In this document: positions 1-14,569 of the stretch, piece by piece
Layout of the letters: every line of letters begins with the position of its first letter
Position numbering within the stretch: position 1 is the stretch's first letter
Source: Clostridiales bacterium
GTDB taxonomy: Bacteria > Bacillota > Clostridia > Oscillospirales > Oscillospiraceae
Assembly: GCA_021203325.1 (NCBI GenBank)
Contig: JAJQBL010000088.1
Span: 1-52,307 of the forward strand
Direction: 5' to 3'
DNA length: 52,307 nt
Program-made: the position numbers and the translations under genes
The notes under the pieces: model-generated
Told to the model about the DNA's origin: nothing
Databases searched by the model: none
What the model saw: only the letters and a program-made list of their open reading frames with translations

Positions 1-274
1 AGGCAACGAGGTAGCAGGCCGTGATGTTGACGGCGAACCGCAGGACGCTTTTGGGAGAGCTGTCGCTGCTCCGGAAGGTGAAATGCTTGTTGAGAAAATA
101 GCTCAGGATGCTGCCGAAGATGTAGTTGGAGGCCGAGGACACCCAATAGCTCAGGTGAAACACGTTGTAGAACAGGAACATGATGGCCGTGCCGAAGAGG
201 GTGTTGGCGATGCCGACCAGGATGAATTTCCAGAAGGTTTTGTCGAAAATGCGGGCCAGCAGGTTATGTTTCAT
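1..274 (-). CDS. GtrA-family membrane protein, partial (C-terminus beyond window)
   Basis: GtrA-like proteins are small four-helix membrane proteins that work beside a GT2 polyprenyl-phosphate glycosyltransferase, probably moving the lipid-linked sugar across the membrane. The visible 91 residues begin MKHNLLARIFDKTFWKFI and contain hydrophobic helices with the family-typical stretch around FGSILSYFLNKHFTF. The ATG at 274 lies inside the end of the upstream GT2 gene (11-bp overlap), which implies translational coupling and a shared job. The gene runs off the left edge, so its last helix and stop are not seen. Family call is secure; the sugar is unknown. Confidence 0.85.
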   Translation of the reverse strand, partial: MKHNLLARIFDKTFWKFILVGIANTLFGTAIMFLFYNVFHLSYWVSSASNYIFGSILSYFLNKHFTFRSSDSSPKSVLRFAVNITACYLVA

Positions 275-1238
275 GGCTTTTCCCGTCCTCATAGGTTCGC
301 TCGCTGATGATATATCTGGGCCGGGCCTTTGTCTCCAGATAGATTTTCCCGATGTATTCACCGATCACCCCAAGGCACAGGAGCTGAATCCCGCCCATGA
401 AGCATACGATGCAGACAATACTTGTCCACCCGGCCACCGTGATTCCGATCATACTGCTGACCACCGCCCATATGATGCCGATAAAGCTCAGAATGGCGAT
501 GATCAGCCCGAGGCCGGTGATCATCCGAATCGGTTTGACCGACAGGCTCGTGATGCCGTCAAAGGCCAGCGCCAGCATTTTCCTGAGGGGATAGTGGCTT
601 TTCCCGGCAATTCGTTCTGCACGTTCGTAATAAACGCTTGTGCTTTTGAAGCCGACCAACGGCACCATACCCCTTAAAAAGAGGTTGACCTCTTTGAAGT
701 TGGCAAGCTCCTGAAGCACACGGCTGCTGATCAGGCGATAGTCTGCATGGTTGAACACGACCTCCGCGCCCATCCAGTTCATGAGCCTGTAAAAGCTCTC
801 TGCGGTGAAGCGCTTAAAGAATGTGTCGGTATCCCGCCTGCTTCTGACGCCGTAGACGACCTCACAGCCCTCCAGATAGGCATCCACCATGGCATCCATG
901 GCGTTGATGTCGTCCTGTCCGTCGCAGTCAATGGAGATGGTGATGTCGCACCGGTCTTTTGCCTCCATCAGACCGGCCAGAACCGCGTTCTGGTGGCCTC
1001 GGTTCCGGCTCTGTGAAATGCCGGTGTAATGGGGGTTTTCCCTCGCCAGATTGCAGATGATTTCCCATGTGCGGTCTTTGGAGCCGTCGTTGACGAACAG
1101 AATCGTGCTGTCCCCGGCAATTTTGCCGGAGGAAATCAGCCCGTTCAGCTTTTGGAGGAACATGGGGGCGGTGAGGGGGAGTACGGCCTCCTCGTTGTAG
1201 CAGGGGATGATGATAGAAAGTGTTGGCTTATGTTTCAT
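264..1238 (-). CDS. GT2 polyprenyl-phosphate glycosyltransferase (GtrB/DPM1-like)
   Basis: 324 aa. Such enzymes transfer a sugar from a nucleotide donor to undecaprenyl phosphate on the cytoplasmic face. N-terminal GT-A fold: SIIIPCYNEE at about residues 8-17, FVNDGSKDRT near 50, and the metal-binding region SIDCDGQDD near 103. Two C-terminal membrane segments (about 240-300) are typical of the GtrB/ArnC group. ATG at 1238 follows GGGAGGACAGT. It sits 12 bp after the upstream GT-C gene and overlaps GtrA downstream, so the three form one operon: lipid-linked sugar synthesis, flipping, and use by the GT-C enzyme. Confidence 0.9.
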   Translation of the reverse strand: MKHKPTLSIIIPCYNEEAVLPLTAPMFLQKLNGLISSGKIAGDSTILFVNDGSKDRTWEIICNLARENPHYTGISQSRNRGHQNAVLAGLMEAKDRCDITISIDCDGQDDINAMDAMVDAYLEGCEVVYGVRSRRDTDTFFKRFTAESFYRLMNWMGAEVVFNHADYRLISSRVLQELANFKEVNLFLRGMVPLVGFKSTSVYYERAERIAGKSHYPLRKMLALAFDGITSLSVKPIRMITGLGLIIAILSFIGIIWAVVSSMIGITVAGWTSIVCIVCFMGGIQLLCLGVIGEYIGKIYLETKARPRYIISERTYEDGKSHET

Positions 1239-1250: not shown

Positions 1251-3176
1251 TTACGCAATCAGCTGATACAGGCAATAAGTTCTGACCGACCCTTCAAAAT
1301 AGAAGGACGCCTGTGCCACACATTCATACAGGTCGGTGTCCAGTTCCGTGTCTCGTGTGACAACAAAATCCACCTTGCCCTGCTGGATAAATTCGTTTTG
1401 GGTCTCCATAATCTCAGCCAGCCCAATGTTCAAATTACAAAAATATTTACAGTTAGGAACGATACCTGTTGTTGTATAAAATCCTCCGTCCAAAAAGCCG
1501 TAATTCAGCAAGGTTGCATCTTCCACCTCTGCGATTATTTCTGCAAACTGGTATTGCGGCAAATCGGATTTGCTGTATTGCATCAGATAGGTATTGCCAC
1601 ACAGGGCGAAGGCAAGCACAGCACTTAGAACACAAACCAGACTGCCGCGATATTGATTGACAATGCGTGGCATTGATGGTATATGCAGATAGTTTCTATA
1701 GCAATTCCGAATAAGTTCAAAGGCGGCCGCCATACCAATAGGAGTAAAGACACTGAAAATCAGCGAATAATATGTGTATCTCCGTCCGCCAATATAGACA
1801 AGCAAAAAGGTTCCCACTGCCGAAGCTGCGATAAACCAAAAATCAGAATCCTTTTTCTTCAGCAAAGACAGTCCCCCAATTCCGGCTATAACTGCGGGGA
1901 CTAAATTATAGTGCAGAATATTTTTTGCACCGCCCAGCAGATTATAGATGCCTGAAGCAAGTAATGAGCCGTTGGACGATACCGAATATGCAAACAGATT
2001 ATCGTAGAAATATACCGTCCACAAATCCGAAAGTGCATGATTTATAATAAAATATAGTAAAATTGGGAAGGAAAGCGCCAGAACGCCTGCGGCGATAAGC
2101 AGGAGCATCTGAAACAGCTTTTTTACTTTTCGATGTTTGATGAGCAGGAAAGCCGGAACGCAAATCCACCCGATGTAAAATCCCAGCATGGAAAACTTGA
2201 TCCACAGCACACAGGCTAACGTTATACCAATCGCCAGACATTCCAATGGAGAGGGGGATTGTTTGCGCCGCAGGCCCTTCATTCCGACATAAATGGCAAA
2301 TGCAAAAAACGGAAGGCACAATTCTTCTGCGCTGTCACCATGGCAAAAGGAGGATGCACTGTATACTAATGCGGACAGTACGGGAACCAGCAAGATGCTT
2401 GCGGAACTGCAATAAAGCCTCATTATTTTGAAGGCGTAAAACAGAAATACCGCACAGGCGATTATTTCAAGGAAATACACCCCTAAAAACGATGTTTCAG
2501 ACACCATCGCAGCCAGCGCATGGAGCATATAAAGGAGGGGCCCCTTTTGCTCAAATAAGTCCCGGTAAGGCACCAGCCCGTGGAGCATGGATTTTCCCAC
2601 AGTAAGAAAACAGTTGGCATCAACCCAATCGTTAAAGGGGTATAGCGGGGAGGATTTTGAGCAAATGGTGATTGTGACAACAGCAGTCGCCAGTATCAGA
2701 AGCATTTGAGGTTTTTCAATGCGGAGCGCATTTTCAGTTGTTATGCCGGAGCGTGCTTCCGCATCGGGGGATGATAAATTTAACAGGATGAATTCAAGGA
2801 TAAGATTTAAGAAGTAAAATCCGACAATACCTCCTGCCGCGGCAAGTGCAAACACAATGAGTTTAGAATCAATCCCCAACTGTGTACCCAGCGACTGTAA
2901 TTTGCTGCTGTAAATCATTGCATCATAGAAAAAATAAGCAGTGACAGCCAGAAAGGACACTGTTAAAACGACAGACAGCAATGATAGATTTGTTTTCCAA
3001 AATGCAGATAGATTTCTCAAAAAGAACGATGCGATAAACAAAACAGCAATTATGACTGCTGCCGTCAATAATCCGGTCAGCGAAGTCGCAAACAACATCG
3101 CAAATGCTCCACCGGAAATAATCAGTGGAATATTTTTTCTCAAATTTTGAAAAGGGTGCTTCATTTTTGCGTACAT
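1251..3176 (-). CDS. Multi-pass membrane glycosyltransferase, GT-C type (GT39-like)
   Basis: 641 aa from ATG 3176 (MYAKMKHPFQ). An in-frame TTG at 3194 lies in the ribosome binding site AGAGGAAAGAG, so the shorter start is chosen. Roughly a dozen hydrophobic helices. The first large loop has an acidic residue in DWVDANCFLTVGK and then YRDLFEQKGPLLY, the arrangement seen in GT-C enzymes that use polyprenyl-phosphate sugars outside the membrane. First gene of the operon that continues into GT2 and GtrA. The acceptor may be a wall polymer or surface glycan and cannot be told. An extended -10-like TGC-TACAAT on the minus strand (3213-3218) could give a basal promoter; a candidate invertible promoter lies further upstream. 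Confidence 0.75.
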   Translation of the reverse strand: MYAKMKHPFQNLRKNIPLIISGGAFAMLFATSLTGLLTAAVIIAVLFIASFFLRNLSAFWKTNLSLLSVVLTVSFLAVTAYFFYDAMIYSSKLQSLGTQLGIDSKLIVFALAAAGGIVGFYFLNLILEFILLNLSSPDAEARSGITTENALRIEKPQMLLILATAVVTITICSKSSPLYPFNDWVDANCFLTVGKSMLHGLVPYRDLFEQKGPLLYMLHALAAMVSETSFLGVYFLEIIACAVFLFYAFKIMRLYCSSASILLVPVLSALVYSASSFCHGDSAEELCLPFFAFAIYVGMKGLRRKQSPSPLECLAIGITLACVLWIKFSMLGFYIGWICVPAFLLIKHRKVKKLFQMLLLIAAGVLALSFPILLYFIINHALSDLWTVYFYDNLFAYSVSSNGSLLASGIYNLLGGAKNILHYNLVPAVIAGIGGLSLLKKKDSDFWFIAASAVGTFLLVYIGGRRYTYYSLIFSVFTPIGMAAAFELIRNCYRNYLHIPSMPRIVNQYRGSLVCVLSAVLAFALCGNTYLMQYSKSDLPQYQFAEIIAEVEDATLLNYGFLDGGFYTTTGIVPNCKYFCNLNIGLAEIMETQNEFIQQGKVDFVVTRDTELDTDLYECVAQASFYFEGSVRTYCLYQLIA

Positions 3177-3319
3177 GGTTCTCTTTCCTCTCAAACTTTG
3201 GTATCGTGTATCATTGTAGCAATCTTATTGCGTTTGACCGTTTTCCGTTTTCTGCACACCAATGGCCTAGTACGTCATTTTCAAGCCAGAATTTCCCATA
3301 GGTCATTGCACTCAAATCA

Positions 3320-3358
3320 TTAGAAATCAGGGCATATTTTGATATACCTGCCGTCCAT
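3320..3358 (-). other. Possible 12-codon leader ORF upstream of the glycan operon
   Basis: ATG 3358 is preceded by CGGAGG at good spacing and encodes MDGRYIKICPDF then TAA. It lies between the candidate invertible promoter and the GT-C gene on the same strand, so it would be in the leader of an ON-orientation transcript. Too short to assert coding; the ribosome binding site is the only support. Confidence 0.25.
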
Positions 3359-3394
3359 GAGAAATACCTCCGTTGTCAAACTTGCTTTCAAAAT

Positions 3395-3536
3395 GTGTAC
3401 CTTTGCAAAGTGAGCCGTATCCGCTGTTCCACCGTCCGGTGATTTGTTTTTCGCTCGGAAAAGTATTGCAAAGGAGGGATTCTGGTGCTATAATGGGACA
3501 GCAATATTGTGAACGAAAGAGTTTGCAAAGGTACAC
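3395..3536. repeat. 15-bp inverted repeats around a promoter: candidate invertible segment
   Basis: GTGTACCTTTGCAAA at 3395-3409 is exactly repeated in reverse complement at 3522-3536 (TTTGCAAAGGTACAC). The 112 bp between them contain one well-formed promoter and no gene. The arms sit at the junction between the host glycan operon and the truncated prophage. This matches the layout of site-specific invertons. A phage attachment-site remnant is an alternative, but I found no matching core near the integrase end. Confidence 0.55.
3466..3494 (+). promoter_or_regulatory. Sigma-A-type promoter inside the inverted repeats
   Basis: TTGCAA (3466-3471), 17-bp spacer, perfect TATAAT (3489-3494). In the present orientation it reads right, antisense to the prophage tail genes. 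If the segment flipped, the promoter would occupy about 3437-3465 on the minus strand and read into the GT-C/GT2/GtrA operon with a leader of about 250 nt. Confidence 0.65.
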
Positions 3537-3554
3537 TTTTCCAAATTCACCCGC

Positions 3555-3701
3555 TCACCCCTCCTCTTCCAATTTCCTGGCTTTGGCGTAAAAAGTCCCC
3601 TCCGGCTGGCCGTACGCCTTGATAAGCTTCTTCTGGGCCCGGGCGGTGAGGCGCAGGCGGTACACGGTGCCGTTCAGGGTGAGTTCATAAGCACGTTTCA
3701 T
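3555..3701 (-). CDS. Small phage protein, possibly truncated tail assembly chaperone
   Basis: 48 aa, beginning MKRAYELTLNGTVYRLRLTA and ending KLEEEG. It directly follows the tail tube gene, where siphophages encode the tail assembly chaperone, and the opening beta-strand pattern (short polar start, NGTVYRLRL) suits the N-terminus of such proteins. Usual chaperones are 90-130 aa, so this looks cut short. It is the last phage gene before host DNA. The assignment rests mainly on position; it could be an intact unknown small protein. Confidence 0.5.
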   Translation of the reverse strand: MKRAYELTLNGTVYRLRLTARAQKKLIKAYGQPEGTFYAKARKLEEEG

Positions 3702-3764
3702 ACTGATTCAGTCCTTTTCAGAAAAAGGCGGCCCCTCATCAGGAGCCGCCTGCATTATTGGTTC

Positions 3765-4175
3765 TCACGCGCTGGGGTTCGTCACGGTCCAGTCGCTCTG
3801 GAGGCTGACGGAGGCGGTGGCCTCAATCAGTTCGTCCACCCCCACGCCGTTGACCACGGTGTTGATGTAGCCGGTGGTGGAAAAGCTGGTGCCGTCGGGG
3901 ACAGTCACCACCACCGGGACGATGTCCCCCGCATCCTGGAGGGCTTTCAGCACCCGGTAGTCGCTGTCGGCGGCGCTGTTGTCAAAGAGGTAGGTGATTT
4001 CGAAGGCGTCCGCGTCCTGCACGCCGGGCACCTGCTTCTTCATCTTGTCCTTCAGGCAGGTGGCGTCCAGGTCGGAGGGTGCGCCGCCGATGTCGCCAAT
4101 TTTCGTCACATAGTTCAGCTCAGTGGAGTTGATGGTCACACTGACGCCGATGCTGGCATAGCCTTGGGTTGCCAT
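3765..4175 (-). CDS. Major tail (tube) protein
   Basis: 136 aa, starting MATQGYASIGVSVTINST. Beta-rich, with the fold-typical middle KIGDIGGAPSDLDATCLKDK and a C-terminal IEATASVSLQSDWTV strand, as in siphophage tail tube proteins that stack as hexamers around the tape measure. ATG 4175 follows a GAAAGGAAT site. The toxin-antitoxin cassette on the other strand separates it from the tail completion gene upstream. With no tape measure gene in the element it cannot assemble a tail of its own. Confidence 0.8.
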   Translation of the reverse strand: MATQGYASIGVSVTINSTELNYVTKIGDIGGAPSDLDATCLKDKMKKQVPGVQDADAFEITYLFDNSAADSDYRVLKALQDAGDIVPVVVTVPDGTSFSTTGYINTVVNGVGVDELIEATASVSLQSDWTVTNPSA

Positions 4176-4250
4176 ATAGAATCATTCCTTTCAGTTTTGA
4201 GTGGATTTTGAGAATCGTTTGTAAAAAAGGCGGCTGAGTAGAAAAAACGC

Positions 4251-4279
4251 TTGACAATATGGGATAAATCCCATATACT
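4251..4279 (+). promoter_or_regulatory. Toxin-antitoxin promoter with operator in the spacer
   Basis: TTGACA (4251-4256), 17-bp spacer, TATACT (4274-4279). The spacer and first -10 bases form an 18-bp palindrome, TATGGGAT-AA-ATCCCATA (4258-4275), well placed for autorepression by the HTH antitoxin or the toxin-antitoxin complex. Confidence 0.8.
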
Positions 4280-4310
4280 GATCGTAGAAAGACAGATGGA
4301 GCGGGAGCCG

Positions 4311-4667
4311 ATGGAAATTATCTTTTACGAGCTGCCGGACGGAAGCGCACCGGCGGCGGACTTTATACGGAGCCTGGAGCCGAAAATGGAGGCAAAAATG
4401 CTCCGTATGATTGACCTGTTGGAGAAGTACGGCGGCGATTTGCGGGAACCCTATTCCAAGACCCTGGGCGACGGCATATTTGAATTGCGGGCGCAGATGG
4501 GGAATAATATCACAAGGGTGCTATATTTCTTCTTTATCGGCAACAGAGCCGTCCTGACAAACGGCTTCACCAAGAAATCACAGCAGACCCCGCCGGGGGA
4601 GATTGACCAGGCAAAGCGCTATCGGCAGGACTACCAGACAAAGGAGGCGACCAGACATGGCCTTTGA
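4311..4667 (+). CDS. HigB-like (phage Gp49/RelE superfamily) toxin
   Basis: 118 aa from ATG 4311, which follows GGAGCGGGAG; the ATG at 4296 would lie too close to the predicted transcript start to have a ribosome binding site. Motifs of the phage-derived Gp49-like HigB group: IIFYELPDGSAPAADFI, LEKYGGDLREPYSKTLGDGIFELR, then TRVLYFFFIGNRAVLTNGFTKK. Members are ribosome-dependent or free mRNA endonucleases. Toxin-first order with an 11-bp overlap into the HTH antitoxin is the HigBA layout. The cassette is on the plus strand inside the minus-strand tail module, so it is a self-contained phage moron. Confidence 0.85.
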   Translation: MEIIFYELPDGSAPAADFIRSLEPKMEAKMLRMIDLLEKYGGDLREPYSKTLGDGIFELRAQMGNNITRVLYFFFIGNRAVLTNGFTKKSQQTPPGEIDQAKRYRQDYQTKEATRHGL

Positions 4668-4941
4668 AGCATTTAAGAGCGCAGAGCTGCAAAAGCCGGA
4701 GGTTCGGGCTGAGTATGACAGCCTGGAACCGGAATTTTCCATTATGCAAGCCATGATTGACGCAAGGCTGGAAACCGGCATGACCCAAAAGGAGCTGTCG
4801 GAACGCACCGGCATTTCCCAGAGCGAGATCAGCCGATATGAGCGTGGCGCCGGGAACCCCTCGGTCAGAACGCTGCGGCGCATCGCCGCCGGGTTGGGCC
4901 GCAGCCTGAAAATCGAATTTGAACCCCGAAAGACGGTTTGA
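4657..4941 (+). CDS. HigA-like XRE antitoxin
   Basis: 94 aa from ATG 4657, preceded by AAAGGAGG; the longer frame from 4603 lies inside the toxin gene. An XRE helix-turn-helix occupies about residues 38-92: ARLETGMTQKELSERTGISQSEISRYERG then PSVRTLRRIAAGLG. The N-terminal 35 residues (FEAFKSAELQKPEVRAEYDSL) resemble the toxin-binding arm of HigA. Likely binds the palindrome in its own promoter. A terminator follows immediately. Confidence 0.85.
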   Translation: MAFEAFKSAELQKPEVRAEYDSLEPEFSIMQAMIDARLETGMTQKELSERTGISQSEISRYERGAGNPSVRTLRRIAAGLGRSLKIEFEPRKTV

Positions 4942-4948
4942 CCGCTGG

Positions 4949-4985
4949 CAGGTCGCTGCTTTTTGGCAGCGGCCTGTTCCTTTTG
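4949..4985 (+). terminator. Intrinsic terminator after the toxin-antitoxin pair
   Basis: Stem CAGGTCGCTGC (4949-4959) pairs with GCAGCGGCCTG (4966-4976), one G-U pair, loop of six, followed by TTCCTTTTGTC. It keeps the cassette from reading against the minus-strand neck genes. Confidence 0.65.
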
Positions 4986-4996
4986 TCTGCCCTCAG

Positions 4997-5380
4997 TCAA
5001 TCAATCAAGCGGAGCGTCCGCTTATCCACCCTCCGGCCAAACCGGAAGGTTTTCCGAAAATAACCGTTCTCCATCCCCAGCGCCCCCGCGTACTCCCGCA
5101 GGAAGCCGATGGAGAGGAGGGCGGTATTCACCAGCGGGGCCAGCGTCCGCAGTTCGTCGGCCTCCGGCCCCCACAGGTCGATTTGATAGCTGAGCCTGTC
5201 CACCACCAGCCGCCCGGAGACCTGGCTGTTGTCCAGCTCGGTGACGGTGATCAGCGCCCCGGTGGGGACTTTGCGGGGCCACTGAGCGCTGACGGTGTAA
5301 GATATGTCAGTATCCAGCCCCTCCAGCGTCGCCCGGATGATGGGGAGGGCGTCCGCCAAAATCAGGCTTGTTTCCGTCAT
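4997..5380 (-). CDS. Tail completion/terminator protein (DUF3168-like)
   Basis: 127 aa (MTETSLILADALPIIRATL). The pattern V(D)RLSYQIDLWGPEADELRTLAPLVNTALLSIGF matches small neck proteins that cap the tail tube at the head-proximal end. It overlaps the gp10-like gene by 4 bp (ATGA), as neck genes commonly do. Position before the tail tube gene supports the role. Sequence similarity in this family is low, so the exact neck part is inferred from order. Confidence 0.65.
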   Translation of the reverse strand: MTETSLILADALPIIRATLEGLDTDISYTVSAQWPRKVPTGALITVTELDNSQVSGRLVVDRLSYQIDLWGPEADELRTLAPLVNTALLSIGFLREYAGALGMENGYFRKTFRFGRRVDKRTLRLID

Positions 5381-5892
5381 TTGAGGAACACCTCCTCAAT
5401 GGCCCCGCCCAGGCCCTCCAGAACGGCGTCCTCGCTGGCGGTCAGGGCGTTGTACAGGAAAGCTTTGGCGGGCACGCCCTCGGTGTAAACGAATCCGCCT
5501 TTTTCGCCCTCCGCGTATTCCTCGCCCCGCATGGCCGCCGCCTCCTCGCTCTGGTAGACCCAGCCGTCCGGCCGGTGGCTGACGCCCAGCTCCGCCGCTT
5601 TGGGGTGTGGGTTTGCCGCCCCCATCGGCCCGGTGCCGAACTCGTGGTAGATGGCGGGGGCATAGCTGGTTTTCACGCCGCCCTCGATCTGGTCGCCGTT
5701 GGCCTCCACATAGCTTTCCAGGCTGTTCCGGAGCCTGCCGTAGTTCACCGGTGCGCCCTCTCTGGCCTGGGCGGCGATTTGCTCTGCCAGCCTGGCGGCC
5801 CGGGTGACGGTGGCCCGCTGGAGTTTGTCCGGGGACTGCTCCAGGGCGGAGATCAGGGCCTCCAGCAGCGCCGAAGTGACAGTTTCAGACAT
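5377..5892 (-). CDS. HK97 gp10-like neck/tail protein
   Basis: 171 aa. It has the hallmark segment of the HK97-gp10 family: a helical start, then APVNYGRLRNSLES, then YAPAIYHEFGTGPMG near residues 75-90, and PAKAFLYNALTASE near the C-terminus. These proteins take part in head-tail joining. Adjacent genes overlap by 4 bp downstream, while 18 bp separate it from the small gene upstream. Typical capsid-side head-tail connector genes, about 100-120 aa each, are not seen between it and the capsid gene. Confidence 0.8.
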   Translation of the reverse strand: MSETVTSALLEALISALEQSPDKLQRATVTRAARLAEQIAAQAREGAPVNYGRLRNSLESYVEANGDQIEGGVKTSYAPAIYHEFGTGPMGAANPHPKAAELGVSHRPDGWVYQSEEAAAMRGEEYAEGEKGGFVYTEGVPAKAFLYNALTASEDAVLEGLGGAIEEVFLK

Positions 5893-5910
5893 CGCGCCGC
5901 CCCTCCTTCC

Positions 5911-6078
5911 TTATTCCGCTGCGGCGGTATCGGCTGCGGCCTCGGCTTTCGCCCTGGTTTTCGCCTTGGTCTTGGCCTTGGTGGCTTCCTCGGTGATGGT
6001 GTAACCGGCGTTTTTGAACGCCGCCACCTGAACGCCGCTCACCCGGAAGGTCTTACCGTTCTTGCTTGTGAGATACAT
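5911..6078 (-). CDS. Small structural-module protein of unknown role
   Basis: 55 aa, MYLTSKNGKTFRVSGVQVAA at the start and a Lys/Ala-rich tail (TKAKTKAKTRAKAEAAADTAAAE in part). ATG 6078 is preceded by AAAGGAGGAATGA. It occupies the slot between capsid and neck genes where some siphophages carry a short basic protein. No function can be assigned. Confidence 0.6.
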   Translation of the reverse strand: MYLTSKNGKTFRVSGVQVAAFKNAGYTITEEATKAKTKAKTRAKAEAAADTAAAE

Positions 6079-6097
6079 GATTCATTCCTCCTTTGGG

Positions 6098-6919
6098 TTA
6101 GGCCGTGGCCTTGTGGACGCCGATGGCCCCCTTCTTGCTGTTCAGGACGAAGGCATCGTAGCGGATGCGGCCCTCCACCAGCCAGCCGGAGATGCCGGGC
6201 GGGTTGTCGTGGATGGTGTAGTCGGTCAGCTTCTCCGGGCCGGGGGTGCAGATGGGGTTGGTGATGACGAAGTTCACCCCGTCCGGCAGATAGCTGGAGG
6301 GCACCTTCACCACAGGCACCCCGTCAATCTCGCCCACCTGTCCGTTGATGGCGATGCCGGTGGCCAGGTCGCCCATCTTGGTGAAGCTGTCGTCCAGCTT
6401 GATATACTTGTAGAAGGTGGGGGAGCAGTAGCACACCCGCCCGCCCTGATGGGCCTTGTTGTCGTCCAGGTCGGCCTGAACGGTCAGGAAGGCTTCATAG
6501 GCGTTGGTGGCGTCCACGGTGCCGGTCTCGGTGCTGCCCGCCCCGGCGCAGATGGCGGCCAGGCGGTAGGTGTCCACCTCAGGGATGATGACCTCGTCGA
6601 TCTGCCGCTGGAGGGCCTTGCCTGCCTCCATGGTCATCTGGGTGTCGTCCCGGCTCTTCTTGTCGATGGTGAAGGTGAAGGCCCGGTCCTGGGTCACCTT
6701 CAGCTCCTGCACCTCGTTCTCCAGCTCGGAGGGGTCGCCGTAGCGGTTGGTGCCGCTGGCGGTGTAGTCGTTCATCGCCACGGTGGGGATGGAGTAGACA
6801 TTCACCGTCTCCACACCCAGCCAGTCATAGTCCTGGTTCACCGCGCCCTGGGTGAGAGAGCCAAGGGTGAACCGCTCGTCGATTTTGTCAGAGTACTTGC
6901 TGGCATAGTTGACTGCCAT
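6098..6919 (-). CDS. Major capsid protein
   Basis: 273 aa, MAVNYASKYSDKIDERF. The opening, the ELKVTQDRAFTFTIDKKSRDDT segment around residues 72-93, a central domain (AAICAGAG, AFLTVQADLDDN), and late NPPGISGWLVEGRIRYDAFVLNSKK are those of the HK97-fold capsid proteins found behind DUF4355 scaffolds in clostridial siphophages. ATG 6919 follows CGAAAGGAATG. The scaffold gene lies upstream, separated by a repeat-filled spacer of about 310 bp. Confidence 0.85.
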   Translation of the reverse strand: MAVNYASKYSDKIDERFTLGSLTQGAVNQDYDWLGVETVNVYSIPTVAMNDYTASGTNRYGDPSELENEVQELKVTQDRAFTFTIDKKSRDDTQMTMEAGKALQRQIDEVIIPEVDTYRLAAICAGAGSTETGTVDATNAYEAFLTVQADLDDNKAHQGGRVCYCSPTFYKYIKLDDSFTKMGDLATGIAINGQVGEIDGVPVVKVPSSYLPDGVNFVITNPICTPGPEKLTDYTIHDNPPGISGWLVEGRIRYDAFVLNSKKGAIGVHKATA

Positions 6920-7229
6920 AATTTAATCATTCCTTTCGTTGGTTTCGTGGTTTGGTGCATAGTGCCCCGGTGCGCCTGTCAGGATGCAACCGCCTGCTTC
7001 TCCCGCACCCCGTAGGGGCGCACAGTGTGCGCCCGCCTGTTTGCGCCTCTGGAAGCCCTTTTGAAGGAGCTGTCAGCGCAGTCAGCTGAGGGGGTCGCGC
7101 CGTTGGAAACGCCCATACGTTGCCAAAGGATGCCACCGTTGCCGGGCGAACGCTGTTCGCCCCTACTGGAAAAGGGAAGGTCATCCTCCTGCGGAGGCGT
7201 GGGTGGGAATCATTGGCACCGATTTCCGC
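6920..7229. repeat. Intergenic spacer with palindromic interspersed repeats
   Basis: No gene seen. Two near-palindromes lie head to head: GGGCGCACAGTGTGCGCCC (7016-7034, preceded by GTAG) and GGGCGAACGCTGTTCGCCC (7144-7162, followed by CTAC). Between them is a third hairpin-forming segment, AAGGAGCTGTCAGCGCAGTC with its CTGAGGGGG end (about 7064-7095). The same two palindromes in reverse order occupy 12381-12526. They look like dispersed chromosomal palindromes inserted into phage spacers. Confidence 0.7.
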
Positions 7230-7793
7230 TCACTTTTTCTGACCCATAAAGCCCATAAGGAAGGGGTCAGGGGCTTCCTCGTGCTGCCCGGCGTCCTTGG
7301 GCGGGGTACCGCCCCGCATCTGGTCGTTGACGGCGCTGGCCCGGTAGGCCCGCATGAGGCCGTCGAAGGCGGTCAGGTTGGTGCTGGTGGCCTCCGCGTC
7401 CTTGCCGGTCAGGTATTTCGCAAAGCCCGCGTCGTAGCCCATGCCCTGGAGCTGTGCCCCGGTCTGGACCTCCAGCTGCTGGCGCTGGAAGGCGGCCCGC
7501 TCGCTCTCGAACTGCCGCCGGTCCTTGTCCAGCTGGTACTGCTCCCGCTGGGTTTTGCTCATCTTTTCCAGCCGTTCCGCTTCGGTCAGGTTCTCCGCCT
7601 GCTCCTGCTCCCATTTGGTGCGGGCGGTCTGCACCGCTTTGGTGGCCCGCCGGTCAAACTCGGAGCGGTAGGCCGGGTTGCTGTCCAGCCACTGGTCAAA
7701 AGTCAGGCCGCTCCCGCCGGAGTTGTTTTCCTCCTCCGGGGTCTGCGCCGGGTTCTGCTCGGTGGTCTGGGTGGTGTTGGGTTCGTCTGCCAT
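7230..7793 (-). CDS. Capsid scaffolding protein (DUF4355-like)
   Basis: 187 aa from ATG 7793, preceded by GAAAGGAGTTATTCAC; a longer in-frame reading from 7880 runs through a terminator hairpin and is rejected. Acidic, Gln-rich N-terminus (PNTTQTTEQNPAQTPEEENN), long charged coiled coil (about residues 55-125, EKMSKTQREQYQLDKDRRQF), and a C-terminal tail FLMGFMGQKK. This composition and the place before the capsid gene are typical of phage scaffolds. Confidence 0.8.
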   Translation of the reverse strand: MADEPNTTQTTEQNPAQTPEEENNSGGSGLTFDQWLDSNPAYRSEFDRRATKAVQTARTKWEQEQAENLTEAERLEKMSKTQREQYQLDKDRRQFESERAAFQRQQLEVQTGAQLQGMGYDAGFAKYLTGKDAEATSTNLTAFDGLMRAYRASAVNDQMRGGTPPKDAGQHEEAPDPFLMGFMGQKK

Positions 7794-7853
7794 GTGAATA
7801 ACTCCTTTCGCGTCCTGCAAGTTCAAGCCCTCGCAGTGTCGTGGTTTGGGTAT

Positions 7854-7877
7854 GAAAAAAGCACCCGGAAGGTGCTT
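7854..7877 (-). terminator. Intrinsic terminator upstream of the scaffold gene
   Basis: Minus strand reads GAAGCACC-TTCCG-GGTGCTTTTTTC, a stem of about seven pairs followed by six T. With the next hairpin it insulates the scaffold/capsid genes from the accessory operon upstream. Confidence 0.75.
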
Positions 7878-7948
7878 CAATCAATGGATTTGATTTTGCA
7901 TTTTGTTGGGGTCAACAAAATGGTCTGCATATGCGTTTTGGACATAAG

Positions 7949-7974
7949 AAAAGCACGGCTCACGTCGTGCTTTT
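7949..7974 (-). terminator. Terminator of the Panacea cassette
   Basis: AAAAGCACG (7949-7957) pairs with CGTGCTTTT (7966-7974); it lies 16 bp after the stop codon of the 7990-8406 gene and works on either strand. Confidence 0.75.
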
Positions 7975-7989
7975 CAATGTTATTGATTG

Positions 7990-8406
7990 TTATCTTTTAT
8001 ATCCTTCGTTATCTCCTATAAACAGATAAAAGGCATAAAAAATCTGATGTATCATCACGCCGACAATTCTACCGACAATGGGATTGTTGTTGGGGTAGAG
8101 CCGTATAACCGTAAATTTAGAGTAATTTTTTTCTTCAAAGCGATTCTTAAATGCTGTTGGAATCTCTTTGTTAATTTTTAGATTTTCAAGTTCAAACCCT
8201 ACTGCTTTTCCTCTTTGCATGAGAACAAGATAGGTATCCTTTGACAGTTCAATCATACGATTTAACATCTGGGCTTTGTACTTGTCTTCAAAATTCTTTG
8301 GGAGGTTGAAATAAGCAAAGTTGAATTTCAGATATTGAGGATTGTAGCACTTTGTGCAAGGCCTAACGCCTCCGGTTTGCCTCTTAATCTTCTTGTCTTT
8401 AGGCAT
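7990..8406 (-). CDS. Unknown protein, probable toxin partner of Panacea antitoxin
   Basis: 138 aa from ATG 8406, which overlaps the stop of the upstream Panacea gene (ATGCCTAA), so the two are translationally coupled. Basic N-terminus MPKDKKIKRQTGG, a short CTKC pair, then helix-rich middle (LPKNFEDKYKAQMLNRMIEL) and a C-terminal VIRLYPNNNPIVGRIVGVM-IHQIFYAFYLF segment that faintly recalls the last strands of RelE-like folds. The A+T-rich base use differs from the GC-rich phage genes. I do not recognise the family. The toxin idea comes from pairing with a Panacea protein and from the private promoter and terminator. Confidence 0.55.
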   Translation of the reverse strand: MPKDKKIKRQTGGVRPCTKCYNPQYLKFNFAYFNLPKNFEDKYKAQMLNRMIELSKDTYLVLMQRGKAVGFELENLKINKEIPTAFKNRFEEKNYSKFTVIRLYPNNNPIVGRIVGVMIHQIFYAFYLFIGDNEGYKR

Positions 8407-8896
8407 TTTCAATCACATTACGAGCAAAATACTCTTGAATCAGTTCAGTCGGGATTTCAGCGTTAAGGCCATGCTCTCTAACGGTGACATCCCAGGGCGT
8501 CCCGTCCTCGTGCGTCATATTGCGAAGCTGCCATGCGGTAAAAATCGCAAAATTATCATAGGTCAGATTAAGCGATTCTGCCTCGTTGTCGCTGATAGCC
8601 TCGACTGCCGCTATGTTTTCAGGAGTTGCATCAATCGAAATAGCATCGCGCCCAAAGCTCTTTAACTCCTGATATACCTCAGGCACGACTGGGCCATGCT
8701 TCCATGCCATAATCTTTTCCGGAAACAGTGGCCGATTCTCCAACGCTAAATGAATCCCCTGAGCAAAATAAAGAAGTTTTTGCAGTTTGAGGTGTGTAAG
8801 CCCTTCGTAAGCGCCGTATTCATCGGTTTCAAATTCCATTCTTCTGGCGTCATTTTGCCAAACAAGCCATGTTGCAGCAGCAAAAGCGGTGGTCAT
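8399..8896 (-). CDS. Panacea/SocA-like (DUF4065) protein, probable antitoxin
   Basis: 165 aa from ATG 8896, preceded by GGAGGAAGG; the longer frame starts within the promoter region. Motifs of the Panacea domain: THLKLQKLLYFAQGIHLALENRPLFPE (about residues 35-60), IMAWKHGPVVPEVYQELKSFG, then LNLTYDNFAIFTAWQLRNMTH. These domains occur in SocA (an adaptor antitoxin) and in many PanAT toxin-antitoxin pairs where they neutralise unrelated toxins. First gene of a two-gene operon with its own promoter inside the head module. Confidence 0.85.
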   Translation of the reverse strand: MTTAFAAATWLVWQNDARRMEFETDEYGAYEGLTHLKLQKLLYFAQGIHLALENRPLFPEKIMAWKHGPVVPEVYQELKSFGRDAISIDATPENIAAVEAISDNEAESLNLTYDNFAIFTAWQLRNMTHEDGTPWDVTVREHGLNAEIPTELIQEYFARNVIENA

Positions 8897-8936
8897 ATCT
8901 GTCACATCCTTCCTCCTCGATTTGTTTGTCAACTAT

Positions 8937-8964
8937 AGTATACCACGTTTTGCCTTCTGTGCAA
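8937..8964 (-). promoter_or_regulatory. Promoter of the Panacea cassette
   Basis: On the minus strand TTGCAC (8959-8964), 16-bp spacer, TATACT (8937-8942), about 40 bp before the ATG at 8896. Confidence 0.6.
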
Positions 8965-9049
8965 CGAAAAAATTGAAAAAAATTTTGCTTATTTGAAAAG
9001 ATTGATGCTTATTTGCTGCAGATACTACAATCAGTGCAACCGGAGTGGG

Positions 9050-9262
9050 TCAGTTCCCGCCGCCTGCGTCCTCCTTCGGCTCGAAATGGTGCCCGTTTCC
9101 GCAGTCCTGAGAATCGGTGGGCCGCCTGAACAGCAAATCGTCAGGAATTTCATTATACCAGTCGCATTTCCTTCGTCCATGGAAGTGCTTGCAGTCGTTA
9201 CACAAACAGCGAACCACACCGGGGTCTGTATAAAAGCGGTCTGGATATTTATGAGCTTCCAT
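9050..9262 (-). CDS. Small cysteine-rich phage protein
   Basis: 70 aa (MEAHKYPDRFYTDPGVVRC). Cysteines in CLCNDC, KCDWY and DCGNGHH suggest a metal site. ATG 9262 follows CGGAGG and starts 2 bp after the ADP-ribosyltransferase stop, so the two are co-translated. Short proteins like this are common behind MuF genes in clostridial phages; function unknown. Confidence 0.6.
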   Translation of the reverse strand: MEAHKYPDRFYTDPGVVRCLCNDCKHFHGRRKCDWYNEIPDDLLFRRPTDSQDCGNGHHFEPKEDAGGGN

Positions 9263-9264
9263 CG

Positions 9265-9666
9265 CTATGCCTCCGTCATGTAAATGATATTCCCGTCAAC
9301 CCGGTCAACGAAGAGCCTTGCGTTTCGCTGGAATAGCACTTCTTGTTCCTTGATATTGATGCTGGAGATGTCTTTTCCGTGTTTGGAAGTAATTACATAC
9401 TGAATCTCCATACTTGGGTCATAGACGGTTTTCCCGGTGGATGTATAAGCAGAGAAAAGAATGGCTTCATCTTTGCGATGCTGTGCCAAAAACGCCGCCG
9501 GGTCATCTATCATGCCAGTGCTGACAGACCGGTAAACTGTCCCTTCATAGTCGGGCAGTTTGGCCAGCGCCGTGTCCAGGTCCCGCACAAGCTGCGCCTG
9601 CTTTGCGGTCAATGTGTCGCCATTTCTCAGCGCATCGTTCAGCGGATAGGCCACCCCGGAGGACAT
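9265..9666 (-). CDS. ADP-ribosyltransferase domain, split from the MuF head protein
   Basis: 133 aa from ATG 9666. It shows the R-S-E signature of arginine-type mono-ADP-ribosyltransferases: YRSVSTG (Arg), FSAYTSTGK (STS-like) and IKEQEVLF (ExE). In-frame codons continue upstream without a stop into the end of the MuF gene (G-I-L-N-E-K-D-I-R-A-I-Q-D-Y before the Met), matching the usual fused MuF-ART layout. A one-base frame change at AAAAAT (about 9717-9724) now separates them. Phage ART domains of this kind may be packaged in the head and delivered into the host. No start signal for separate translation is evident. Confidence 0.75.
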   Translation of the reverse strand: MSSGVAYPLNDALRNGDTLTAKQAQLVRDLDTALAKLPDYEGTVYRSVSTGMIDDPAAFLAQHRKDEAILFSAYTSTGKTVYDPSMEIQYVITSKHGKDISSINIKEQEVLFQRNARLFVDRVDGNIIYMTEA

Positions 9667-9698
9667 ATAATCCTGAATGGCCCGTATGTCTTTTTCAT

Positions 9699-10781
9699 TC
9701 AGTATACCATCTTCGCCGGATTTTTCAACCTCGTTTTTCCCTCAACGTATTTTGCATACCACTCTTTATAGGTCATATACCCCGGAATAGTGACAGATTT
9801 CCCCGTCACCGGGTCCCTCGCCGCCCGGTTCACCCGATTCAGCTGTCCCCGGCTCATGTCGCACATGGTGGTAGAGCGGCAGTGGGGGTGCATGGGCGGG
9901 AGGTTCGTCCCCGGCGTGGCCTCCGCCACCGGGAACCGCTGGCCGTCCAGCTTCCGGCAGATCTCGCTTGTCCGCAGGTCCAGCGTGGCCAGATAGATAT
10001 AATACTCAATCCCCGCCGCCTGGTAGCCCATCAAATGGCCCTGATTGGCCACATAGTTGCACTCGGTCATCACCAGCCGCCGGGCGTTGTACTTCGCCCC
10101 CTGGGTGTCATCCAGGCCGATGACGGCCAGCAGGTTGTCCCGCATTTCGTCGTACCGCAGCCCCGCCAGCAGGCCCACGGTGACGGTCTCCTCCACCGCG
10201 TCGGCGAAGCGCTGGTTGTTGTCCCACAGGCGGTCAGACCAGTTTTTTCCACTCCAGTTGGCGGAGAGGGCCGCGGTGATCTGGTTGTCCCCCAGCAGGT
10301 CGAAGCGGTACCCCTCCCCGGTGTACTGCTCCACGTCGAAGATGGTGCGGTAATAACTTTGCTCCAGCGTGTCCGAGAGGCGGTCGCTGACATATTCCGC
10401 CTCGCTGAGGCCCACCCGCCGGGCCTGGGCGTAAATATCGTCCCGGAGGGCCTGCAAGCGGCTGATGCGGTTGGCGTAGGCCGGGGCGGAGAGCCGGGCC
10501 CAGATGTCCCGCTTCACCTGCCCGGTGGCGGTCCGGTACTGCTCCCGGAGGGCGTCCCGGGCCTCCTCCGTCTCCCGGACGGTCAGCAGCTGATTGGCCT
10601 TCTGCTCGTTCATCGCACCGCCCTTCACATAGGCGGAGAAGGTCTTTTCAATCTGCCCGACGATGTTCTCCTGCGCCTTGTCGTAGAGGGCGGTGATTTG
10701 CGCCACCGTTTTCTCCGCACGGGTGTGCAGCAGCTGCTCCAGATTCAGAGAGCGGCGCTTCCAGTAATCCCGGCTGTTCAT
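9699..10781 (-). CDS. Minor head protein (MuF/SPP1 gp7-like), C-terminally frameshifted
   Basis: 360 aa, MNSRDYWKRRSLNLEQLLHT. Long helical N-terminus, then the MuF signature near residues 270-310: LDLRTSEICRKLDG, PGTNLPPMHPHCRST. These proteins bind inside the portal vertex. The ATG lies within the end of the portal gene (4-bp overlap). The last codons (LKNPAKMVY then stop) come from an out-of-frame reading after a run of A; shifting back one base gives an open frame into the ADP-ribosyltransferase domain. Confidence 0.9.
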   Translation of the reverse strand: MNSRDYWKRRSLNLEQLLHTRAEKTVAQITALYDKAQENIVGQIEKTFSAYVKGGAMNEQKANQLLTVRETEEARDALREQYRTATGQVKRDIWARLSAPAYANRISRLQALRDDIYAQARRVGLSEAEYVSDRLSDTLEQSYYRTIFDVEQYTGEGYRFDLLGDNQITAALSANWSGKNWSDRLWDNNQRFADAVEETVTVGLLAGLRYDEMRDNLLAVIGLDDTQGAKYNARRLVMTECNYVANQGHLMGYQAAGIEYYIYLATLDLRTSEICRKLDGQRFPVAEATPGTNLPPMHPHCRSTTMCDMSRGQLNRVNRAARDPVTGKSVTIPGYMTYKEWYAKYVEGKTRLKNPAKMVY

Positions 10782-12301
10782 TCAGCCTCACGGCCAGGTA
10801 GGAAGCCGGCGACCTTCTTTTCCGCAGCCTCTTCCTCGGCGCCCTCAGAGGCTCCCATGCTCTGCTGGTAAACTTCCATATTCTCCTGTTTTTGCTGGCG
10901 GATGTTCCGCACCGCCTCCGCCGGGTCCCGGATGAACCACAGCTGAGAGAGCAGCGTCCGGTCGTCCACGATGCCCTGTAAACTGGTCACCATCTGCACA
11001 ATTTCCGTCTCATTGATGGGGGTGGAGATGGTGAACACCACGTCCACATCGGTGACAGGCACCTCCCGCATGGCCCCCTTCACCGTGAGCCAGCGGTTGT
11101 ACAGCGTCAGCCGCTCCTTGAGGCCCCGCTCCATCCGGCGAATCTTGTTCTTCACCAGCAGGTTCATGGTCAGCAGCTTCAGCTTGAGGGCCTGCCCGGA
11201 GCTGTTGCCCGCGAAGTTCTCGTCAGACATATCCACCGTCAGGGTCATTTTGTGCATCTCCCGGACGGCGGCGTCGGCCAGCACCTGAACGCTGCTCTCG
11301 TCGAAGGTTTTCTGAATATACTCCACTTTCGCGTCCAGCGGGGCGCCGTCGATGAACTTCTCCCGCAGCAACTTCTCTTCGTCACTCTCCCGGAGGCTCA
11401 TGCCGAAGAACACCAGCAGGGCGTCCACGAACTTCTGTTTGTCCGTGAACCGGTTGCTCATCAGGTTGTCATAGGCGTCGATGAGTGGAATGATTTGCTC
11501 AAAATCCCCTTGCCGTTCATCGTTGTTCTCGTAGGCGATGACGGGCACCGCGCCGAAATAGTGCGGCTCCGGCTCCCCCACCAGCTGGAAGGGGGCGGGG
11601 TATTTGTCCGTGGACTTGTACCGCTTCACCGTCTGGTCGGTGTAAATCGTCACCAGGTAGTAAAGCTCGCCGGTGCTTTTCTCCCGCCGCTCCCACAGGA
11701 CGGCGAAGAGCTTGTTGTGCTCCACGGTGGAATCCTCCACCAGAATCCCGTCCATGGGGGCGATGTAGGCGCTTTTCGGCTCCGGCACCGGGTCGGAGCT
11801 GGCATAGCAGACCTCCAGGCACTCGCCGTACACCCCCATACCCTTGCCGATGCGACTGTCCACCTCGCTGATGTGCTGCCGGTCGTAGGTTTCCAGCAGG
11901 GGGGAGAGGTCGATGCGCTGGCCCTCTTTCACGGCTGACGCCGCCTGTGGGCCATTCTGCGGGCCGTTCTTCTCCACTTGGTGCTGGGATATGCCGGGGA
12001 CGGTTGCGCCGCTCTGGGGGCCGTCCTCCGCCTCGTGGGTCTCGTTGGTGTCGTACTTCACCGGCTCCCCCAGATAATACCCCTGGGCGATGTCCACCAC
12101 GTACTTGGCGTAGTTCACCGCCACCAGCACCTCGTCCGCCTCCGGCTGCCTGCGGAGGTTGTCGTGCTGGCCCCGGTAGTACCGGTCAAGCCGGAGGAAC
12201 CGGCTGTTGGCCCCCTCCGCCTTCCGGATCAGGTGCCGCAGCACGGAGGAGGGGATGTCCTCCAGATTGGGGACTTCTTCCCGGTCTAAGTAGATGATCA
12301 T
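10778..12301 (-). CDS. Portal protein (SPP1 gp6-like)
   Basis: 507 aa from ATG 12301 (MIIYLDREEVPNLEDIPSSV), preceded by GAGGTG; longer in-frame sequence runs through palindromic repeats and is rejected. Family features: RFLRLDRYYRGQHDN near 35, AKYVVDIAQGYYLGEPV near 67-83, NDERQGDFEQIIPLIDAYDNLMSN in the crown region, FISTP-like VVFTISTPINETEIV late. Forms the dodecameric DNA channel to which terminase docks. An Ala/Gln/Gly-rich insertion (residues about 90-130) is unusual and low-complexity. Confidence 0.9.
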   Translation of the reverse strand: MIIYLDREEVPNLEDIPSSVLRHLIRKAEGANSRFLRLDRYYRGQHDNLRRQPEADEVLVAVNYAKYVVDIAQGYYLGEPVKYDTNETHEAEDGPQSGATVPGISQHQVEKNGPQNGPQAASAVKEGQRIDLSPLLETYDRQHISEVDSRIGKGMGVYGECLEVCYASSDPVPEPKSAYIAPMDGILVEDSTVEHNKLFAVLWERREKSTGELYYLVTIYTDQTVKRYKSTDKYPAPFQLVGEPEPHYFGAVPVIAYENNDERQGDFEQIIPLIDAYDNLMSNRFTDKQKFVDALLVFFGMSLRESDEEKLLREKFIDGAPLDAKVEYIQKTFDESSVQVLADAAVREMHKMTLTVDMSDENFAGNSSGQALKLKLLTMNLLVKNKIRRMERGLKERLTLYNRWLTVKGAMREVPVTDVDVVFTISTPINETEIVQMVTSLQGIVDDRTLLSQLWFIRDPAEAVRNIRQQKQENMEVYQQSMGASEGAEEEAAEKKVAGFLPGREAE

Positions 12302-12592
12302 AGTTTTATGCACCTCGGTTTCGTTGGTAGCTGTTAGCCGTTCGCTGCGATGGTTGGAACCGCCGGGTTTCCCCTGTCCAGTAGGGGCGAACAGCGTTCG
12401 CCCGGCCCGCTTTCCGGTTCCCTCTGGCGTTTCGTTGGCAAACAATGTTATCGGAAAAAGCAATTTCCTGTTCTGACTTTGCGGAACGGGGGAACATTCC
12501 TGCGGGCGCACACTGTGCGCCCCTACGGGGTGAGGGAGAGGATGTGGTTGAACCCCACGGCGATCGCACCGGGAAGAACCAGCCACTAGCCA
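12302..12592. repeat. Spacer with the same palindromic repeats in reverse order
   Basis: No gene seen. GTAG plus GGGCGAACAGCGTTCGCCC (12381-12403) and GGGCGCACACTGTGCGCCC plus CTAC (12504-12526). The pair is the reverse complement arrangement of the one at 7012-7166, while the DNA between the arms is not clearly alike. Confidence 0.7.
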
Positions 12593-13867
12593 CTAAACCC
12601 CTCTCGGCCTCCGCTTCACGCTGACCACCTGCCGCCCCAGAATGGTGCTGACGAAGTACCGCATGGCGTCCATCGCGTGGTCGTTGGCCTTCACCGGCCT
12701 GTCCTCGCCCCGTTCCCCGGCCTTCTCGTCCCAGACGTAGGCCTGGAACTCCTCCAGAGTGTGGACGCAGCTGCGGGAGAACACCAGCTCCCCGGCTCCC
12801 AGCCTTTGGGCGACGGTTCGGATGCCGTCCAGCACATCGTTGTCCGCCTTCTGGACGGAATACCCCCGCTGCCGCAGCTCCGCGATGAAGGACGCGGCGG
12901 AGGGGTCCACCACGATGGCCCGGGGGCTTGTGCCGTCCAGCCATGTCCGCAAGTCCTCCGCGAACTCGCTGTCGGTTTTTTGGCGGCGGCTTGTTCTGCC
13001 GGAGTAGTAATATTCCCGGACGCAGAACCAGCGCTCTCCGCCTTTCTCCCGCCGCCACAGCAGGAACACCGTGGGGTTCTGGGTGCCGTAGTCACAGGAG
13101 ACGTAGCTGTCCCCGGCCAGCTCCGGCAGCTTGTCCGCCACGTTCCGCTGTTCGGAGAACATATCGTAAATCCGGCCTTCCGCCGCCACCCACAGGCCCA
13201 GGATGTACCTGTCCCGGAACACCCCCTGATACATGGTCTCCGCGTCGGCGATGGCCTCCGGGGTCAAAATCGGGTTGTCCTCCATGTGGAAGTGGAGGTG
13301 GAGGGCGCTGTGCTGCTCCGGCTGTCCCTCCTTCACCCACTCCTGATAGAACCAGTGGCCGGGGCTCTCCGGGTTGCAGTTGAACCAGAGCTTTGCGTTC
13401 GGTTCGCTGAGGGTTCGGGCGATAGCCTGCTCCACAAAGAACCGGGGCATGAGGGCCACCTCGTCGAACAGCACCCCGCACAGGGTAATGCCCTGAATCA
13501 GGGCGTAGCTGCTCTCGTCCTTGCCGCCGAAGATGTAAAAGCGGTTCTCCCGCCCCAGCCCCCGCACCATGAGGACATGGTCAGACCGGCGGTAGCTCAG
13601 CGAAAAACACGCCGCCAGATCCGCCTGTTCCTGGGCGGGCCGGACGATGTTCCGCTCGGCGGAGGCCACCGTCTTGCCGCAGATGCCGAAGTTCTGGCCG
13701 TTGAAATACCGCATGGCCCACAAGATAAAGCCGGTGAGCATACAGACGGTTTTGCCGCTGCGCACCGCTCCGTCGCAGATAATGGCCTTGTACCGCTCCT
13801 GTGTGGAGGGGGTGAAGGCCCATTTCAGCACGGTTTTTTGTTTGGGGGAGAGTTCGGAAAGGGTCAT
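12593..13867 (-). CDS. terL: Terminase large subunit
   Basis: 424 aa. ATPase domain: Walker A GAVRSGKT (33-40), Walker B GVLFDEVALM (131-140), coupling region NCNPESPGHW. Nuclease domain acidic residues in SCDYGTQNPT, VVDPSAAS and NDHAMDAMRY. Packages DNA into the head together with TerS and the portal. The ATG overlaps the terS stop by 4 bp. Appears full length and intact. Confidence 0.95.
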   Translation of the reverse strand: MTLSELSPKQKTVLKWAFTPSTQERYKAIICDGAVRSGKTVCMLTGFILWAMRYFNGQNFGICGKTVASAERNIVRPAQEQADLAACFSLSYRRSDHVLMVRGLGRENRFYIFGGKDESSYALIQGITLCGVLFDEVALMPRFFVEQAIARTLSEPNAKLWFNCNPESPGHWFYQEWVKEGQPEQHSALHLHFHMEDNPILTPEAIADAETMYQGVFRDRYILGLWVAAEGRIYDMFSEQRNVADKLPELAGDSYVSCDYGTQNPTVFLLWRREKGGERWFCVREYYYSGRTSRRQKTDSEFAEDLRTWLDGTSPRAIVVDPSAASFIAELRQRGYSVQKADNDVLDGIRTVAQRLGAGELVFSRSCVHTLEEFQAYVWDEKAGERGEDRPVKANDHAMDAMRYFVSTILGRQVVSVKRRPRGV

Positions 13868-14232: not shown

Positions 14233-14314
14233 AAGGCCCTCACCTGTCTTTCCAATGGGATAAAAATACCGCTGGCCCGGAGGTCAACGGCGGTAAGATT
14301 TTTCAAAATAGGGC

Positions 14315-14343
14315 TTGACATGGGTGTACATCTATGATATACT
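14315..14343 (+). promoter_or_regulatory. Promoter for two small plus-strand genes
   Basis: TTGACA (14315-14320), 17-bp spacer, TATACT (14338-14343). It diverges from the late operon and lies 32 bp before the next ATG. Confidence 0.8.
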
Positions 14344-14374
14344 TATATCAGAAACAAGGAAAGGAGGTAACACA

Positions 14375-14521: not shown

Positions 14522-14569
14522 CCCGGAGGGCGGCGCAAGCCGCCTTCCCTCTCTGTAAGGAGGTAAATC

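Follow-up and report, generated by a model that had tools for sequence, protein, structure and literature searches.

A clostridial promoter inverton beside a recombinase remnant, probably locked in the OFF orientation

The stretch of DNA analysed here (52,307 nt of Clostridiales bacterium contig JAJQBL010000088.1, the window) carries a promoter between inverted repeats in front of a candidate surface-glycan operon, and no intact recombinase gene stands beside it. Is this promoter invertible, which recombinase would have turned it, and can it still be turned? We consider it quite likely that it was once the invertible promoter of a three-part module and that it now stands OFF, probably locked because its recombinase was lost, unless another enzyme serves it in trans. 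The direct support is formed by the sites, the promoter sequence, a recombinase remnant, related modules and the natural inversion of a sister module at the level of the genus.

Crossover sites, promoter and target operon

The first-pass annotation had proposed a promoter, TTGCAA-N17-TATAAT, inside 15-bp perfect inverted repeats and at present directed away from a GT-C/GT2/GtrA operon. Arms and promoter were found where it had placed them (3395-3409/3522-3536, spacing 112 nt; 3466-3494 on the plus strand), with the operon on the minus strand (Table 1). When mismatches were allowed, the arms reached 24 nt (3386-3409/3522-3545) with 88% complementarity, and both arms were themselves imperfect 24-bp palindromes, each with two 11-bp half-sites around a 2-bp centre (11+2+11). 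Read from the centre outward, the four half-sites are ACCTTTGCAAA, ACTTTTCCAAA, ACCTTTGCAAA and ACATTTTGAAA. Small serine recombinases typically use sites with a 2-bp centre, and by their sequence the window sites have the form expected of crossover sites for such enzymes. The geometry of an invertible promoter was upheld, with its sites corrected to longer dyads of serine-recombinase form.

Table 1. Features of the window around the predicted invertible segment.
Feature	Position	Strand	Remarks
GtrA family membrane protein, truncated by contig end	1..274	-	GtrA E 9.7e-16
Family 2 glycosyltransferase	264..1238	-	Glycos_transf_2 E 4.9e-21; nearest NCBIfam model PgfS, below cut-off
GT-C-like membrane glycosyltransferase (PMT_2), first gene of the operon	1251..3194	-	PMT_2 E 8.5e-6
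Weak promoter-like site before the GT-C gene, not part of the invertible segment	3213..3240	-	CGGTCA-16-TACAAT with TG, 8/12
Left crossover site, operon-proximal	3386..3409	+	Imperfect 11+2+11 dyad, central GT at 3397-3398
Predicted invertible segment, 136 bp	3398..3533	.	Inferred from the dyads; L102/L103 breakpoints at the same GTGTAC core
Extended -10 promoter TTGCAA-17-TATAAT	3466..3494	+	Reads away from the glycan operon (OFF); hexamers kept in G022 homolog L108
Predicted hairpin over the right site	3510..3559	-	Half fixed flank, half invertible segment
Right crossover site, recombinase-proximal	3522..3545	+	Dyad, central AC at 3533-3534
Small serine recombinase remnant, last 16 codons and stop	3556..3606	-	PEGTFYAKARKLEEEG; C-terminus of the relatives' recombinase
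Fusion ORF, 48 aa	3556..3701	-	N-terminus from prophage gene, C-terminus PEGTFYAKARKLEEEG from recombinase
Phage tail tube protein, neighbour of the fusion ORF	3765-4175		

The promoter matches the consensus at 10 of 12 positions, with TG preceding its -10. That scan also gave 16 promoter-like sites in 12 kb where 7.0 were expected, so the consensus by itself proves little, and it is by consensus only that the inverted repeats flank a promoter. Of 40 randomised versions of the window, made by shuffling non-overlapping dinucleotides, 1 contained any 15-nt pair at a spacing of 40-300 nt. The 13-mer TTTGCAAAGGTAC, with at most one mismatch, occurs at two places in the genome, which are both arms, but a reversed control pattern likewise occurs at two, so the word is not unusually rare; the 15-mer with up to three mismatches occurs at 3 places in the window against 0.89 expected. 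The window holds one further pair of at least 15 nt, the 19-nt perfect inverted repeat TGTGCGACTGTGCGACTTT (19697-19715/19806-19824, arms 90 nt apart), which contains a direct repeat. Since the arm word is not rare and chance pairs occur, it is the pairing and the relatives that carry the case.

Domain matches to all three genes bore out the operon (Table 1); such trios form three-component glycosylation systems. In the flipped orientation the -10 would lie at 3442-3437 and transcription would start at about 3430, facing the GT-C gene in tandem and leaving a leader of about 236 nt before the TTG at 3194; this is close to the 250 nt first estimated. A weak basal promoter had also been suspected near 3213. 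A site does exist at 3240-3213, but it matches at only 8 of 12 positions. The leader contains a 54-codon open stretch (3211-3375, minus strand), perhaps a gene remnant, which had no Pfam family at E 0.1. Relatives of the GT-C gene were found in 13 of 393 other genomes of the order and in 0 of 58 relatives. By eye, the approximately 158 N-terminal residues of its ORF are partly hydrophobic. Most of the stronger relatives in the order leave this N-terminus unaligned, their matches usually starting near residue 160. Near two of the relatives of the GT-C gene (L129 and L130) no repeats resembling the window sites were seen, so that orientation is not comparable at the same operon.

Related segments behind small serine recombinase genes

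A DNA search of 59 genomes gave matches in 7, the window's own genome among them. In same-genus genomes, the related DNA directly follows the 3' end of a gene for a small serine recombinase. For example, a 24-nt, 83% pair directly adjoins the 3' end of such a gene (PF00239) in genome G024 (L006). In G016 the related DNA adjoins two recombinases, with a perfect 15-nt pair, GTGTACCTTTTCAAA/TTTGCAAAGGTACAC, at L017 and a pair of 10 nt only on contig C82 (L018/L008).

The window matches L108 of G022 at 186 of 258 positions over the promoter, both sites and the recombinase end (E 5.3e-23), and TTGCAA and TATAAT are both conserved there in the window's orientation. Both sites of L108 are imperfect and recognisable only through alignment with the window, and the automatic rule chose other arms, 193 nt apart. 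The G022 recombinase is broken, two of its parts matching in different frames.

When a strict pair pattern was applied to 394 genomes of the order, only the own genome had it. That set held just three other same-genus genomes (G017, G021 and G027), none a known site carrier, so this negative says little. In G007, two window-like site pairs were observed at separate loci (L007 1504-1665 on C30, L010 1368-1519 on C76) with no adjacent recombinase; one of them precedes a gene that by eye resembles a lipoprotein gene. At E 1e-30 this genome had only a recombinase fragment (residues 36-111). Site pairs without a neighbouring recombinase thus recur.

Natural inversion of sister modules

Two loci of the window's genus, L102 (G001) and L103 (G018), which by length are the contigs of L030 and L036, have common flanks, and the segment between their GTGTAC cores is inverted. 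Identities between them were 164/216 as found and 230/233 after inversion in silico. Two other comparisons were less striking: L016/L017 (161/208 inverted versus 141/190 as found) and L025/L026 (157/204 versus 136/193). The sister modules L102 and L103 are inverted relative to each other, but L108, the closest homolog of the window segment, has the window's orientation, so inversion is demonstrated for sister modules only.

Recurrence of the module in Clostridia

A scan covering 84,980 species genomes confirmed 422 recombinase relatives, of which the best 80 were taken. Within the genus, the recombinase protein was found in 15 of 32 genomes at E 1e-30. We pooled 103 loci, including those with distant or truncated recombinases. 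Removal of duplicates and a requirement for at least 200 nt past the stop codon left 85, and 400 nt were available at 83. These 83 loci include the window, and 415 stretches from the same loci served as controls.

An inverted pair of score 13 near the recombinase stop, with no motif required, was found at 42 of the 83 loci and in 2 of the 415 controls. At score 11 the counts were 49 and 12. At score 9 the contrast was smaller without the motif (60/83 versus 56/415) and large with the core motif (51/83 versus 3/415). No pair was detected at score 13 in 41 of the 83 loci, and none with the core motif at score 9 in 32. The pair rule missed L031 and L036, and through L036 the 83-locus count includes misses; other loci may truly be without a pair.

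The core was present at both sites in 48 of the 52 modules with a motif-bearing pair; many of these modules are related by descent, so counts among them are not independent. The promoter-like site was directed toward the recombinase in 36 of the 52, away from it in 8 and unclear in 8 (35, 8 and 8 without L108, which was miscalled). The apparently orphan inverton of the window is thereby placed in a clostridial module that has a recombinase beside its own sites.

The recombinase remnant and the prophage

The first-pass annotation had stated that no recombinase lies beside the element. This is correct as far as intact genes go, yet the remnant of a recombinase gene starts 10 nt past the right site. 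The match at the locus comprises the last 24 residues only (C4:3558-3629). By the remnant and by homology to L108, the site pair directly follows the 3' end of what was a small serine recombinase gene, as in the related modules. The remnant is in frame with part of a prophage gene, and together they form the fusion ORF, which had no Pfam family at the cut-off. Its 5' part is 96% identical in DNA to a prophage gene of L004 (G004) over window positions 3602-3717, and the junction falls in about 3602-3610, where few bases are shared. In the genome, which is 99.5% complete, the N-terminal part of the cognate recombinase was not found, a paralog on contig C159 aside.

Integration of the prophage at the site was considered and rejected, because no direct repeat of at least 12 nt was found between 3541-3760 and the window beyond 4400. 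Among viral contigs, the tail-tube protein had no relative and the two site patterns had no match; no phage record near-identical to 3500-16500 was found.

The original module would have had three parts in tandem: a gene for a small serine recombinase, a promoter framed by two inverted crossover sites, and a target gene. By cutting the two dyads at their central GT/AC, the recombinase would invert the 136-bp segment. In the ON orientation the promoter would read into the glycan operon; in the OFF orientation it would read back toward the recombinase and may be halted there by a hairpin. The simplest route to the present arrangement would be a deletion from inside the prophage gene into the recombinase gene, sparing the last 16 codons. 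We infer this deletion, the locking, the expression states and past use of the window sites. With the recombinase lost, the switch would probably be locked OFF with at most weak basal expression, and the three-gene operon would be silent or basal. Loss of the recombinase may thus have fixed a surface phase here. The locking is the step of this explanation most in doubt, followed by the reality of the fusion.

Site specificity and possible action in trans

Across 47 modules, the similarity of recombinase C-termini (last 42 residues) and that of the half-sites had a rank correlation of 0.56, or of 0.46 with the preceding 55 residues held constant. For the preceding 55 residues it was 0.37, and -0.11 with the C-terminus held constant. 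Neither 0.56 nor 0.46 was reached by any of 500 permutations (0 of 500), a count that overstates certainty because the modules are related by descent. This covariation indirectly supports the view that module recombinases would act on their adjacent sites, and the tracking of the half-site by the C-terminus offers a sequence rule for pairing recombinases with switches. The remnant, compared by position from the end, matches the recombinases of L101 and L020 at 12 and 11 of 16 residues, and the sites of both modules end in CAAA, as do those of the window.

Could the switch still be active, with C159, C99, C31 or a tyrosine recombinase inverting the segment in trans? In Bacteroides, Mpi serves many promoters. 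The window arms are still perfect over 15 nt, and recombinase-free site pairs recur, as in G007 (C30, C76). The own genome also holds one intact close relative of the recombinase, C159:1036-1638, which is 70% identical. However, this enzyme has its own, different site pair, CAGGAAGGTTTACCTTCC, with arms 133 nt apart and other half-sites, and only 5 of 16 residues of its C-terminus match the remnant. Given that site and C-terminus covary, both features argue against its acting on the window sites, which would be possible but unsupported. Further candidates are two more PF00239 genes and six PF00589 matches in the genome, five of them over the cut-off. The only PF00589 match on the window contig is at 29068-29337, away from the segment. 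We regard inversion in trans as unlikely, though it is the alternative that we take most seriously.

The locus on C159 is a second recombinase-inverton module in the own genome (L012 770-938; G000). By eye, its promoter-like site is directed toward the recombinase, and beyond it lies a gene for a signal-peptide protein, truncated by the contig end.

Against the reading of a locked switch it may also be held that the fusion is an assembly chimera and that the living strain has an intact recombinase beside the element. The assembly is a draft of 160 contigs, and prophages are common places of misassembly. However, the bases shared at 3602-3610 would be too few for the usual repeat-driven join, and the fusion ORF remains in frame. 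In addition, the rest of the genome yielded no N-terminal part of the recombinase and no close copy of the missing part of the phage gene, for which the match on C39 has 37% identity. We therefore consider a chimera rather improbable. Least credible, and in our judgement very improbable, is the suggestion that the inverted repeats are a chance or structural feature such as a terminator-like hairpin or repressor operators: each arm is itself a dyad that can fold into a hairpin and another pair of at least 15 nt lies in the window without such a context, but similar pairs behind recombinases are far above control and natural inversion occurred at such cores in a sister module.

An orientation-dependent hairpin

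A hairpin is predicted over the right site of the window. Among 44 modules with a called promoter direction, the RNA at the recombinase-proximal site folds more stably in OFF (mean difference -5.4 kcal/mol), being lower by more than 2 in 26 and higher by more than 2 in 10 (Wilcoxon p 0.001), and fold energy at the distal site had no orientation difference (p 0.64). Without the odd-arm modules L108, L063, L066 and L116, the difference was -6.1 (25 and 8 of 40; p 0.0006). An outer-stem measure of the pairs beyond the half-sites, designed after the fold-energy result, was 6.9 in OFF versus 5.0 in ON for 40 modules (p 0.0006); at the distal site it was 4.4 versus 4.3 (p 0.96). L072 and L069 had the opposite trend by both measures. 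In the window, the outer stem scores 9.5 in the present orientation versus 5 when flipped, although the fold energy of the right-site stretch does not differ between orientations (-17.1 versus -17.6). By these predictions, OFF tends to be the orientation with the stronger hairpin downstream of the recombinase gene.

In OFF, the stem half in the fixed flank would join its partner from the invertible segment and mutually insulate the transcripts of the recombinase gene and of the promoter. Splitting of the stem in ON would alter the recombinase mRNA and thereby the switching rate. Tentatively, and with more doubt than confidence, we propose a self-contained class of clostridial switches in which inversion assembles a hairpin and retunes the switching rate, the window copy having been frozen OFF by a prophage-linked loss.

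Comparison with known systems

Hin and Mpi are small serine recombinases, and Hin acts at short dyads that are centred on 2 bp; the fimE/fimS recombinase is of tyrosine type. Mpi is one master enzyme, whereas in the clostridial modules each recombinase lies beside its own pair. On the NCBIfam Mpi model, the recombinases of L006 and C159 scored 46.9 and 41.7 bits against a cut-off of 272.

As far as the available part of the source describes them, invertons of gut bacteria include a Clostridia group, 139, with a tyrosine-type recombinase (PMC11892184). Those invertons resemble the present one in their inverted repeats, nearby recombinase and occurrence in gut Clostridia. They differ in that the relatives of the window have a small serine recombinase immediately upstream, which the window has lost. 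The terms 'serine' and 'resolvase' have 0 occurrences in the main text of that paper. Inversion signatures from read pairs in Clostridia were found in 14 of 15 positive Firmicutes samples, and serine recombinases are not named in the available part of that paper (PMC5903667).

In E. coli, a phase-variable Rho-dependent terminator lies downstream of fimE in the OFF orientation of fimE/fimS, according to the available part of PMC2784873. The likeness is that the recombinase gene adjoins the switch and the OFF-phase terminator lies behind it; the terminator there is Rho-dependent, whereas the window modules have a predicted hairpin only. For C. difficile cwpV, the same part of that source gives a stem-loop at the repeat, predicted in OFF only and proposed to be an intrinsic terminator (PMC2784873). 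Unlike in our modules, the cwpV promoter is outside the segment and the terminator acts on the transcript of the target instead of following a recombinase gene.

In a plasmid search with the recombinase, serine recombinases were widespread (at least 5000 records), all with less than 60% identity among the matches listed. Titles and abstract openings, mostly outside subscription journals, contained no Clostridia serine recombinase directly before its own promoter inverton, and we make no claim of absence from print.

Targets of the related modules

An ORF lies past the pair in 50 of the 52 modules, in tandem in 45 and opposed in 5. When the 45 tandem targets were scanned, an Eco57I methylase domain was found in 6, a family 2 glycosyltransferase in 2 and a family 8 glycosyltransferase in 1. 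The Eco57I targets suggest phase-variable restriction-modification. Candidate phase-variable traits of these mostly uncultured gut Clostridia could in this way become predictable from sequence. Large proteins with a similar N-terminus were observed directly behind the inverton at L021, L028, L030, L065, L066 and L077, and these are probably the six Eco57I-domain targets.
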